Shown one piece after another: positions 82-15,506 of a stretch of 20,554 nt of DNA. Origin of the DNA: a virus; the IMG/VR virus record IMGVR_UViG_3300025161_000038, positions 1-20,554 of that record; one strand, given 5' to 3'. Position numbers and translations under genes: made by a program. Position 1 is the stretch's first letter; each line of letters starts with the position of its first letter. The notes under the pieces were generated by a model, which saw only the letters and a program-made list of their open reading frames with translations, was not told where the DNA came from and made no database searches.

Positions 82-127
82 TAGCTATGTAGCACACAAG
101 ATTTTTTTAAATTAAGTGTAACCTTAT

Positions 128-133
128 TATAAT
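128..133 (+). promoter_or_regulatory. TATAAT-like -10 box (weak candidate)
   Basis: A TATAAT hexamer lies in an AT-rich run (124-140) after the end of the first gene and about 27 bases before the closing stem of the structured RNA candidate. A start near 140 would fit that RNA. No convincing -35 box is seen, and the Bacteroidota-type TAnnTTTG element is absent, so this may be chance in AT-rich DNA or a phage-polymerase promoter of unknown type. Confidence 0.2.
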
Positions 134-157: not shown

Positions 158-428
158 AACCCACCAATCTCACCCAAATGGTTGGTATCCCCCATGAAGG
201 CCGAAAGGTAATTAGTGGGGCAGACGTCGGGTAGTAGCTACAAATAGTAGTGAGGTGTCCCCGATAGGGTTAAAAATGGTCAAGGTAATAAACTGTTAGG
301 CGCCCTAGCGTAGGGTTGGAATAGGGGGCGTGTAGGTGTAACCACAACGACGTTGTGCATCGTACGGTAACAGTTAAGGCCTTGGTTGACAAAGTTTAAG
401 GGCTTTGCCTAGGGGGTGGGGTGTTTTT
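158..428 (+). ncRNA. Candidate structured non-coding RNA, about 265 nt, family not recognised
   Basis: This gene-free stretch is visibly GC-richer than its AT-rich surroundings, and its segments pair in a nested order. The closing stem is 160-165 with 415-420 (CCCACC/GGTGGG). Inside it are 190-194 with 216-220 (CCCCA/TGGGG), which holds a CC-GAAA-GG mini-hairpin; 227-231 with 260-264 (TCGGG/CCCGA); and a long arm made of 281-285 with 380-384 (CAAGG/CCTTG) and 291-298 with 368-375 (AACTGTTA/TAACAGTT, 8 perfect pairs). That arm carries hairpins 301-305/326-330 and 343-348/352-357 (CACAAC-gac-GTTGTG). A further hairpin, 391-396/401-406, has two G-U pairs. A T-run (424-428) follows the closing stem and could end transcription. 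No hallmark of RNase P RNA, tmRNA, tRNA or a group I intron was found. The pairings are read from sequence; the function is unknown. Confidence 0.6.
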
Positions 429-471
429 AATAGGTTAGTAAATACAGTTATAAGTTAATAATAAGGTTATA

Positions 472-11354: not shown

Positions 11355-11894
11355 ATGGACAAACCGACTACTTTGAAAAAAGGCGCTTATAATGGCGGAC
11401 TTCCCGACAAGGCTATAGAGATTATAAATAAGCATATTCATGATGAGGCTTATAGTTCTCAGATATATTTGCAAATGGCTTACTGGTGTGATGTAAAGGG
11501 TTATACTGGTGCCGCTAAGTTTTTTAGGAAACATGCTGAGGAAGAAAGGGCTCACATGATTAAGTTGTATGATTATATGGCTGATAAGAATGTTATTCCC
11601 ACTACTCCAACTATAGAGGCTCCTAAAAAAGAATATGCTGATTTGTATGATGTTTTAGAGTCTGCTTTACAACATGAATTTGATGTAACTTATTCATATG
11701 AAGTTGATGCACAAAGATTGTTAGAGATTCCATGCCACCAAACGTTTCAACTGTTCCAATGGTTTATAAAGGAACAGGTTGAAGAGGAATCTCTGTATCA
11801 GACTATTGTAGATAGATATATGATACTTATGAAAGGTGGTATTACAGGTACCGGACTTTTAGAGTTCGATGAGTATTTAGAAGAATTGGTTTAA
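11355..11894 (+). CDS. Non-haem ferritin (iron-storage ferroxidase)
   Basis: A bacterial ferritin oxidises Fe(II) at a di-iron site and stores it as ferric mineral inside a 24-subunit shell. This 179-residue protein is collinear with E. coli FtnA after a constant offset of 14 residues from an N-terminal extension. The ferroxidase ligands align as E31, Y38, E64, H67, E108, Q141 and E144 (FtnA E17, Y24, E50, H53, E94, Q127, E130). Recognisable blocks are EAYSSQIYLQMAYWCD, GAAKFFRKHAEEERAHM, LQHEFDV and FQLFQWFIKEQVEEESLYQT. All ligands are intact and no haem-binding methionine context was noticed, so a ferritin is favoured over bacterioferritin. It lies between portal and scaffold-like genes, 22 and 12 bases apart, in an A-rich-leader operon. 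It is therefore probably expressed late with the virion genes. Confidence 0.93.
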   Translation: MDKPTTLKKGAYNGGLPDKAIEIINKHIHDEAYSSQIYLQMAYWCDVKGYTGAAKFFRKHAEEERAHMIKLYDYMADKNVIPTTPTIEAPKKEYADLYDVLESALQHEFDVTYSYEVDAQRLLEIPCHQTFQLFQWFIKEQVEEESLYQTIVDRYMILMKGGITGTGLLEFDEYLEELV

Positions 11895-13138: not shown

Positions 13139-14602
13139 ATGGAAAATAATCTTTTAAACAGTCTAGTACTGTATAGAACTAAATGGAACTCAGGACTAGC
13201 AGATTCTAATTTGCTTTCAAACGCTCTACTTACACAGCCCGCACAGATGTCAACAGTCATATCCTATATTTTTGGTAGATTTGATCAGGGAAATATCCTC
13301 GACTATCTTACTCAGGGTATGGGAAGAACCATGGTTGTTGAAAACAGCGAGTTTGAATGGCCGGTTATGATTGAACATGACAAGGCCGTTACAATTAGGG
13401 ATGCTAAATGGCAGGGAGCATCTATTTCTGCTACAGATACTCCCGGTGCTGGCGGATCTGTTATTCAGTTGTGGTTAGATGAAAAGTGGTTTGGCCCTGG
13501 TGCAGTACTTGAATTCGACGACAAAGAATATCAGGTTAGGGTTAAGGGCGAGCCTTATCAGGACGGTTCTCTTTGGGTGTATGAAGTTGTAGTAGCTGAT
13601 GGTCAGGTTGAATCTTATATTCCGCCTTCACTTTTGGCTGCCGGTAAACAGGTTAGTAGACTTGGTTCTGCTTACGAAGAATACAGCGAAGAAGCCGACT
13701 TTGTAAACTATGCCACACCGTTTAAGCTGCGTAATCAGCTTACAACTATGCGTATGTCTTACGACATTACGGGTACTGTTTTCAGCGATGTTATGGTCAT
13801 TGAACTCAGAGACCCCAAGACTAAGAAAGCCACTCGTTATTGGGCTCCTTATCAGGAATGGACAGCTTGGAGGCAGTGGTATGAAAGAATAGATAGAATG
13901 TCTGTTTATTCTAAATACAATAAGAATACTGACGGCTCTATTTCTCTTATTGGTTCTAACGGACGCCCTGTTCCTATTGGGGCTGGGCTTCTTCAGCAGA
14001 TTTCTCCTTCAAATAGGCGTTATTATACAAAGTTGACTCTTGATACACTTGATACCTATCTTGGCGATCTTTCATACAACATCCTGGGATTTGGCGAACG
14101 TAAGTTTGTTGCTCTCTGTGGTGAAATGGCAATGAAAGAACTTGATAGAGTTCTTCGTGAAAAAGCTTCTGCTTATACATTGGTTGATTCCAAATTTATA
14201 ACTGGTAGTGGACAGGAACTTGCTCTTGGTGGACAGTTTGTTACCTACAAGGGACTTAACGGTGTAGAACTTACACTTAAACACTTCCCGCTGTATGACA
14301 ATCCTGTTTATAATAGGAAGCTTCATCCTATATCTGGTAAACCTCTCGAATCTTACCGAATGACGTTTATTAACTTCGGTATGAGAGATGGTGAATCAAA
14401 CGTTGTTAAAGTTGTTAAAAAGGGTAGGGAACTTGTTACTTGGTACACTGGTGGATCTGTTGGTCCTCAGGGATTCTCGAATTCTATTAACAATCTTCGT
14501 TCGAACGCCAGAGATGGTTATCAGGTTCACTTTTTGTCAGAGCAGATACTTGCTATTAAAGATCCGACAACTTGCGGTGAACTTATTTGCGACGCTGAAT
14601 AA
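13139..14602 (+). CDS. Major capsid protein
   Basis: This protein builds the icosahedral shell. It has 487 residues, the size of crAss-like capsid proteins, and an HK97-type fold is likely though not proven here. It starts MENNLLNSLVLYRTKWNSGL and has TQPAQMSTVISYIFGRFDQ and LDYLTQGMGRTMVVENSEFE, then FEWPVM, which is a recognisable capsid N-terminal arrangement. It continues with a beta-rich body (ADGQVESYIPPSLLAAGKQV, FKLRNQLTTMRMSYDITGTV, RKFVALCGEMAMKELDRVLR). Codon use differs from neighbours: of 23 isoleucine codons 16 are ATT, 2 ATC and only 5 ATA, whereas ATA dominates in terL. That fits very high expression. The leader has no Shine-Dalgarno sequence. It follows the scaffold-like gene by 29 bases. 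Confidence 0.87.
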   Translation: MENNLLNSLVLYRTKWNSGLADSNLLSNALLTQPAQMSTVISYIFGRFDQGNILDYLTQGMGRTMVVENSEFEWPVMIEHDKAVTIRDAKWQGASISATDTPGAGGSVIQLWLDEKWFGPGAVLEFDDKEYQVRVKGEPYQDGSLWVYEVVVADGQVESYIPPSLLAAGKQVSRLGSAYEEYSEEADFVNYATPFKLRNQLTTMRMSYDITGTVFSDVMVIELRDPKTKKATRYWAPYQEWTAWRQWYERIDRMSVYSKYNKNTDGSISLIGSNGRPVPIGAGLLQQISPSNRRYYTKLTLDTLDTYLGDLSYNILGFGERKFVALCGEMAMKELDRVLREKASAYTLVDSKFITGSGQELALGGQFVTYKGLNGVELTLKHFPLYDNPVYNRKLHPISGKPLESYRMTFINFGMRDGESNVVKVVKKGRELVTWYTGGSVGPQGFSNSINNLRSNARDGYQVHFLSEQILAIKDPTTCGELICDAE

Positions 14603-14618
14603 TTAAATATAGAATAAA

Positions 14619-15506
14619 ATGATAGTAGTTGTACGCCCACTGGGCAGGAATAGTTGGTCAGGTTTTTCTAGGTACAAAAATTGTACAGAATACCTAGGCA
14701 CATATTACACACGTTCTGGTGCACTTTATACTGGATTGACGCCAGAAGATGCTGAAAGGCTTGGAAATTTACTGGGACTTGATTTAAGACCCTCTTCTGC
14801 ATATTGGGAAAGTTTTGTTATACCTATGACCGGTAAGGATTTGTATTTAGACACTTCATACCCGTCAGATGAATTAAAGTATTTGTTTCTCAAGAACCAT
14901 AAGAGGGTCCAAGCCTCTATCTCAGAAGTAAAGCCTGGTGCAAATTATGTAATGATTGATAAAACAAACGAGGCTAAGGAAGCCAATAAGTTTAATAGAA
15001 TTAAGAGAAGGGCTGCGGTGGAATTTGAAAAAATGTCATTGGACGATATGCGTAAGTGTTTACGTCTGTATGGCTATAATTCAGAAAGTTCTTCTGCCGA
15101 GATTATAGAAAGCACTTTGTATGACCTTATTGAAGGTAATCCTGAAAGATTTCTTGATAAGTGGGTTGATAATAAGGATAGGGAGCTATATGTTTTGCTA
15201 GAGACTGCAATATCTAAAAATATTATAAGGAAATCTGGTGGAATGTATAGATACGGTGGTGAAATACTTGGTAATAGTAAAGACGGTGCCGTTGCTTACC
15301 TTAAAAACCCAACAAACCAAGATATTAGGGTTGCTATAGACAGAGAAGTTGCTGGTAAACCAGAATTTTCTATGGTAGACAGGTCTGCAGAAATAAACGA
15401 GGAAGAAGAATCTCCAGCTGCAAAAGCCATTTCTAAAGCTAAAAAACTTAAAAAACAAGACGTTTCTGATGAGGCAGATGTGCCTAACGAACTTCTTGTA
15501 AAATAA
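14619..15506 (+). CDS. Conserved phage head/neck-region protein, role unknown
   Basis: A 295-residue protein directly after the capsid gene. The N-terminal part (MIVVVRPLGRNSWSGFSRYK, then the stretch TRSGALYTGLTPEDAERLG) is a compact, arginine/glycine-rich region. Residues about 55-170 contain YWESFVIPMTGKDLYLDTSY, DELKYLFLKNHKRVQASISE and MSLDDMRKCLRLYGYNSE, the last resembling a SAP-like or LEM-like helical hairpin. After the body comes an acidic then lysine-rich flexible tail (EEEESPAAKAISKAKKLKK). The same domain order seems familiar from Bacteroidota phages downstream of the capsid gene. A head-completion or capsid-associated role is likely by position only. Confidence 0.78.
   Translation: MIVVVRPLGRNSWSGFSRYKNCTEYLGTYYTRSGALYTGLTPEDAERLGNLLGLDLRPSSAYWESFVIPMTGKDLYLDTSYPSDELKYLFLKNHKRVQASISEVKPGANYVMIDKTNEAKEANKFNRIKRRAAVEFEKMSLDDMRKCLRLYGYNSESSSAEIIESTLYDLIEGNPERFLDKWVDNKDRELYVLLETAISKNIIRKSGGMYRYGGEILGNSKDGAVAYLKNPTNQDIRVAIDREVAGKPEFSMVDRSAEINEEEESPAAKAISKAKKLKKQDVSDEADVPNELLVK

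Follow-up and report, generated by a model that had tools for sequence, protein, structure and literature searches.

The DNA analysed here, referred to as the window, is a linear IMG/VR record of 20,554 bases and, judging from its genes, is a crAss-like phage fragment. The gene at 13139 encodes the major capsid protein, which matches the Pfam family Crass_capsid with an E-value of 2e-181 and shares 62% identity with the capsid protein of crAssphage cr118_1. A ribonucleotide reductase gene (863), the terminase large subunit (6962, PHROG match), the portal (9002, recognised by its similarity to the gene next to the terminase of cr118_1) and, between the portal and capsid genes, a ferritin-like protein (11355-11894; PF00210, E 2.8e-29) were also located. 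The gene immediately 3ʹ of the capsid gene (14619-15506) has a RecA C-terminal-domain-like match (PF21096, E 1e-7). In cr118_1, a group I intron (RF00028, 76 bits) was found on the minus strand (L006, 721-976), and the annotation splits the capsid gene into two pieces. Near the start of the window, the plus strand is predicted to encode a structured RNA with two domains and a 3ʹ element at 158-424.

The preliminary description of this region was made from the window sequence alone, and the gene-free stretch and the complementary segments that it listed are indeed present; no ORF of at least 60 codons was found in the RNA region. Its argument that so many stems were unlikely by chance, however, fails as it was put, because the stability of the region is not above chance. 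The folding energy was -88.6 kcal/mol compared to -86.9 kcal/mol for shuffled sequences, and 37 of 100 shuffles folded as well as the native sequence. The z-score of -0.39 is not significant and was dropped as support for the RNA, and on single-sequence evidence alone the claim of a structured RNA would not stand.

The region had been assigned to no named RNA class, and a cmscan-type search of Rfam 15 (4227 families, including GOLLD, ROOL, OLE, HEARO, group I/II introns, tmRNA, 6S, and riboswitches) agreed: at gathering thresholds, no family matched over the RNA in the window or in 22 related loci. At E ≤ 10 the window gave a single non-credible lncRNA-fragment overlap and nothing credible over the RNA, and at E ≤ 3 the relatives L071, L026, L033, and L024 gave nothing credible over it either. 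ARAGORN detected no tRNA or tmRNA in the window and none overlapping the RNA in its relatives.

Homologues were therefore decisive for accepting the RNA. With blastn, one faint match was obtained, between 221-277 of the window and cr118_1 sequence that lies between genes and has no annotation (E 0.4), and by eye the similarity extends further and takes in a compensated stem (P6, below). Pattern scans, with the motif common to the window and cr118_1 as the search key, yielded 39 credible loci from IMG/VR and another 18 from four bacterial genomes. Five other pattern matches were discarded as chance or coding matches, L058 for having no match to the covariance model R1 and L027, L040, L057, and L062 by eye; blastn of the L042 or L028 RNA against phage records gave no credible match. 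R1 was trained on 11 pattern-scan loci, with the window and cr118_1 left out, and it detected the window at 167-279 with 76 bits (E 2e-14) and cr118_1 with 51 bits. The window carries the feature by which the R1/R2 family is recognised, a P1-P4 four-way junction with CAGANGUCGGGU and GUCCCCGAUAG.

The predicted four-way junction makes up the 5ʹ domain (158-271, plus strand) and is closed by P1, in which AACCC (158-162) faces GGGTT (267-271). The hairpins P2 (163-186, pairing 163-167/182-186) and P3 (190-220, pairing 190-195/215-220) show changes on both sides in 5/5 and 4/5 pairs, with 93.5% and 98.1% of cells paired in the phage sequences, respectively. The register of P1 and P2 in the window was set by hand; the model starts both from 167. 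P4 (221-267, pairing 227-231/260-264) bears the conserved CAGANGUCGGGU and GUCCCCGAUAG and an inner hairpin (238-241/247-250) whose helix covaries. The invariance of P4 and the flanking motifs is partly by construction, because they were the search key; in eight host copies that came from the model search and not from the pattern scan, a P4 pair has changed from G-C to A-U. Two host copies (L210, 471-679; L211, 517-728) have an AT-rich insert of about 100 nt in the inner hairpin of P4, resembling a repeat that also lies beside other copies of the RNA. A pseudoknot between the apical loop of P4 (CAUAG) and a 3ʹ UAUG was considered and rejected, being inconsistent from member to member.

Across 51 distinct sequences of the 5ʹ domain, 92.4% of cells were paired and the covariation was 0.636, compared to 0.159 in shuffled alignments and less than 0.1 with slid partners. 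For the phage sequences alone the values were 0.750 against 0.170, and for the 17 copies of one host genome 0.376 against 0.153. Because these alignments were fitted to the model, the complementarity of P1 was tested separately: for the five bases at the end of GAUAG and just beyond it, the exact Watson-Crick complement was sought at the expected upstream place. It was found in 28 of 41 sequences, in 25 different versions, while the control with swapped strands gave a mean of 2.9 and a maximum of 8 in 2000 trials. L037 and L066 were omitted from the hand-built alignment because P1 could not be placed in either. The hairpins that had been proposed in the 5ʹ half are thus borne out by homologues, but the closing stem proposed at 160-165/415-420 was rejected, because it needs bases of the conserved P1 and is not seen in relatives. 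With P1 in place of a terminal stem, the RNA consists of two domains in series and not of a multibranch fold enclosed by such a stem.

The 3ʹ domain (277-388, plus strand) was aligned in eleven sequences with a similar 3ʹ half, the window and 10 relatives. Its consensus fold, with P5 (281-285/380-384) and the inner hairpins, shows changes on both sides in 16 of 27 predicted pairs. P6 (291-298/368-375) was read by eye from this alignment and occurs as AACUGUUA/UAACAGUU in the window, AAUCUA/UAGAUU in cr118_1, and CCUUAUG/CAUAAGG in L023. Farther in (335-367), GGUGUA (335-340) and CGUACGG (361-367) lie on either side of a cap hairpin (343-348/352-357), and the segment is conserved in the aligned relatives, with GGUGUA and CGUAC invariant in all 11. 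The long arm suggested from the single sequence coincides exactly with P5 and P6, and the hairpins within it were confirmed by the homologues.

Taken with the unremarkable folding energy, the stems could be put down to chance, with no functional RNA at the locus. The detection of the window by R1, the covariation, and the complementarity of P1 argue against this explanation, which the covariation has already refuted unless the alignments are wrong, and we give it practically no weight. The structured RNA at 158-424 is accepted because of this comparative evidence and not because of folding energy. Almost certainly, the window encodes a new, previously uncatalogued family of structured RNA of about 270 bases, as the preliminary description had suspected; an independently trained model detects it, the compensatory changes proposed as a check are found in its homologues, and Rfam 15 holds no match.

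A sigma-70-like promoter, TTTAAA-16-TATAAT (106-133, plus strand; 10/12 matches), precedes the RNA and predicts a start near 140, although the match does not exceed the local shuffle count and, taken from the window only, is weak. The Bacteroidetes -7 box, TAnnTTTG, occurs no more than 40 nt ahead of P1 in 13 of 37 sequences, compared to 1.1 after shuffling, and in two members TTGACA-17-TATATT ends just 5ʹ of P1. The phage lineage and these promoter boxes, rather than contig-by-contig assignment, suggest Bacteroidota as the hosts. The ORF that follows in phages lies on the strand of the RNA in 24 of 25 cases and no intrinsic terminator was found before the next gene in 21 of 25; the RNA therefore usually heads an operon, in many cases where neighbouring genes diverge. 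The downstream genes vary among phage lineages, and some copies sit inside gene blocks (G484 and G487). In the window, the T-run reported after the structure is present (423-432, plus strand), behind a weak terminator-like hairpin at 402-422 composed mostly of G-U pairs.

If the RNA were a cis-acting leader that let RNA polymerase pass terminators throughout a long phage operon, it would also be the first element past the promoter, often at the head of a divergent operon, and would have a next gene on the same strand whose identity is irrelevant. The put RNA of HK022 and the EAR elements, which act in processive antitermination, are likewise structured RNAs with which a long operon transcript begins, whereas the crAss-like phage RNA has a much larger two-domain fold, a start-codon element, and solitary host copies. 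As those solitary copies, the G484 and G487 copies inside gene blocks, and the presence of one copy per genome in six positive phage records with several operons each all tell against it, we consider such a leader rather unlikely.

About 40 phage contigs carry the family, most of them together with a crAss-like terminase. This terminase was present in 12 of 19 RNA-bearing contigs tested, the remainder being mostly fragments, and a 102-kb RNA-bearing record (L033) had no crAss-like terminase match. Six whole records (48-165 kb) have terminase and portal families in common and carry one RNA each; in the 165-kb record L024, seven tRNA genes (52-1473) lie just 5ʹ of the RNA. Neither model gave a credible match in nine other crAss-type or related reference genomes. 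Weak best matches of 18.9 bits in a reference phage, inside a terminase gene, and of 20.9 bits in contig L016 were rejected. In several phages, including the window, the RNA lies no farther than about 4-7 kb from the terminase gene, as might be expected of a packaging RNA acting with terminase like the pRNA of phi29, a structured phage RNA of packaging. That role is very improbable, given that the RNA is absent from the nine reference genomes, lies far from terminase in G487, and is also present in bacteria; unlike the pRNA, it is patchy in crAss-like phages, belongs to another phage lineage, and has no Rfam match.

In bacteria, 12 and 17 copies were found in two Bacteroidales MAGs, RUI415 and RUG14866 (loci L067-L084 and L204-L213), and one copy in each of two other bacteria, while scans that began with a coarse filter found no copy in 394 further Bacteroidota genomes or in 80 of the same family. 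By these scans, the family is very rare in bacteria, and its carriers there are a few gut bacteria. A convergent gene comes next in 12 of 14 host copies, usually 90-340 bases away, and several of these neighbours are apparent secreted-protein genes with a common C-terminal region. The multiple copies in two genomes, the homing endonucleases adjoining the RNA in three loci, and its patchy presence in crAss-like phages could reflect an RNA that belongs to a mobile element, either linked to homing endonucleases or repeat-like, and inserts near operon heads. Yet each phage genome searched has one copy, no nuclease was noticed near most loci, and the RNA has its own promoter and a maintained fold. 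Nor are flanking inverted repeats a family feature: a perfect inverted repeat of 11-12 bp in the window (AACCTTATTAT at 120-130 and ATAATAAGGTT at 458-468), slightly above the shuffle maximum, was rejected as mobile-element ends, as it is absent from the relatives. We regard a mobile element as improbable.

At its 3ʹ end, the window RNA carries UAGGGGG-UGGG-GUG (410-423, plus strand), which opens an ORF of 5 codons and is the 3ʹ element expected of the R1/R2 family. A recognisable purine run near the RNA 3ʹ end (A[AU]GGGG, AGGGAG, or GAAGG) was picked by eye in 25 members prior to the start-codon test, and a start codon (NTG) follows 4-7 nt past the run in 23 of them. Shuffled tails had a start codon at this distance in a mean of 6.6 and a maximum of 15 members, and none of 5000 shuffles reached 23. 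The resulting peptides (1-32 aa, with AUG-UAA in L055 and MS in L033) are unrelated apart from those of close relatives, and no conserved ORF lies behind the element, with L081 as the one exception. In that Chitinophagales genome (L081, near 1887-2720), the RNA is in frame with a downstream NUMOD4-HNH homing endonuclease, and the 8-kb stretch also holds a recombinase-like ORF, seen by eye, and a tRNA gene.

We tentatively propose, at a probability of roughly 0.35, that the RNA engages the ribosome during infection through its 3ʹ end. The purine run would pair with the 3ʹ tail of 16S rRNA and set the start codon, and the folded part would position, modify, or trap the resulting initiation complex. 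In Bacteroidia, the anti-Shine-Dalgarno tail is kept out of reach in a bS21-bS18-bS6 pocket of the ribosome, and strong Shine-Dalgarno signals are read by ribosomes without bS21 (PMC9976891). In six RNA-bearing phages, AGGGG was found upstream of none of 511 ORFs of at least 100 aa, and Shine-Dalgarno 4-mers do not exceed the random level. Because the tail is normally hidden in Bacteroidia and the phages make no use of Shine-Dalgarno signals elsewhere, the target of the RNA would be those ribosomes whose tail is exposed; these might be loaded onto the operon leader or sequestered. A leader would agree with the lack of terminators in phages, and a trans role or decoys with the host copies, which keep the fold without the start codon.

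Several observations speak against ribosome engagement: the run is AGGGG and not AGGAGG, the best anti-Shine-Dalgarno complement; host copies kept the purines, lost the start codon, and mostly have a convergent gene as neighbour; and none of 17 RNA-bearing phage records has a bS21 gene, so that a co-encoded bS21 was rejected. GGAUCACC, GAAGUCG, and AGGGGA look like the 16S rRNA 3ʹ end, but the likeness was judged coincidental, because GGAUCACC is not conserved in the freshwater lineage.

The start codon would be irrelevant if the RNA acted in trans as a non-coding RNA, bound to protein or as RNA only in the manner of GOLLD and ROOL, and were either excised from the longer transcript of the operon or terminated at weak terminators. 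Solitary host copies that keep the fold through compensatory changes and mostly face a convergent gene, the variable downstream genes in phages, and the terminator-like hairpin in the window are all consistent with this explanation, but it leaves the start-codon element unexplained and sits poorly with the 21 of 25 phages lacking an intrinsic terminator before the next gene. We consider it possible, if on balance unlikely; together with the antitermination leader it is the closest rival of ribosome engagement. More speculative, and quite doubtful, is a wider form of ribosome engagement, in which a ribosome-directed class of phage RNA would exploit the hidden tail to capture or reprogram a ribosome subpopulation, and the 12-17 diverged, start-codon-less copies in two Bacteroidales lineages would be decoys or regulators against the phage RNA.

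GOLLD (>800 nt) and ROOL (~660 nt) are structured RNAs of phages and prophages with unclear function (PMC12286853). The earlier suggestion that the present RNA is another of this kind holds insofar as it is structured, phage-encoded, and of unclear role, but neither covariance model matched it, both RNAs are larger than its ~270 nt, and while they often lie near tRNA islands, tRNAs adjoin it only in lineage L024 among the relatives checked. In Flavobacteriales, the rpsU leader has an extended Shine-Dalgarno sequence read by bS21-less ribosomes (PMC9976891). The RNA resembles that leader in having an exceptional Shine-Dalgarno-like signal where the organisms otherwise do without, and differs from it in its large conserved fold, with no conserved ORF and no bS21 gene following.

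In the literature searched, which took in few subscription journals and preprints, we found no earlier description of the family and no account of crAss-like phages encoding a structured non-coding RNA. The family itself thus appears to be new, while GOLLD and ROOL are precedents for structured phage RNA as a kind. crAss-like phages rank with the most abundant viruses that the human gut contains. The fold, coordinates, and model of the family are defined well enough for it to enter Rfam and to be studied by RNA-seq and structural probing. With a Shine-Dalgarno-like end in phages that ignore such signals, as their hosts presumably do, the family makes a direct test of hidden-tail targeting in Bacteroidia possible.
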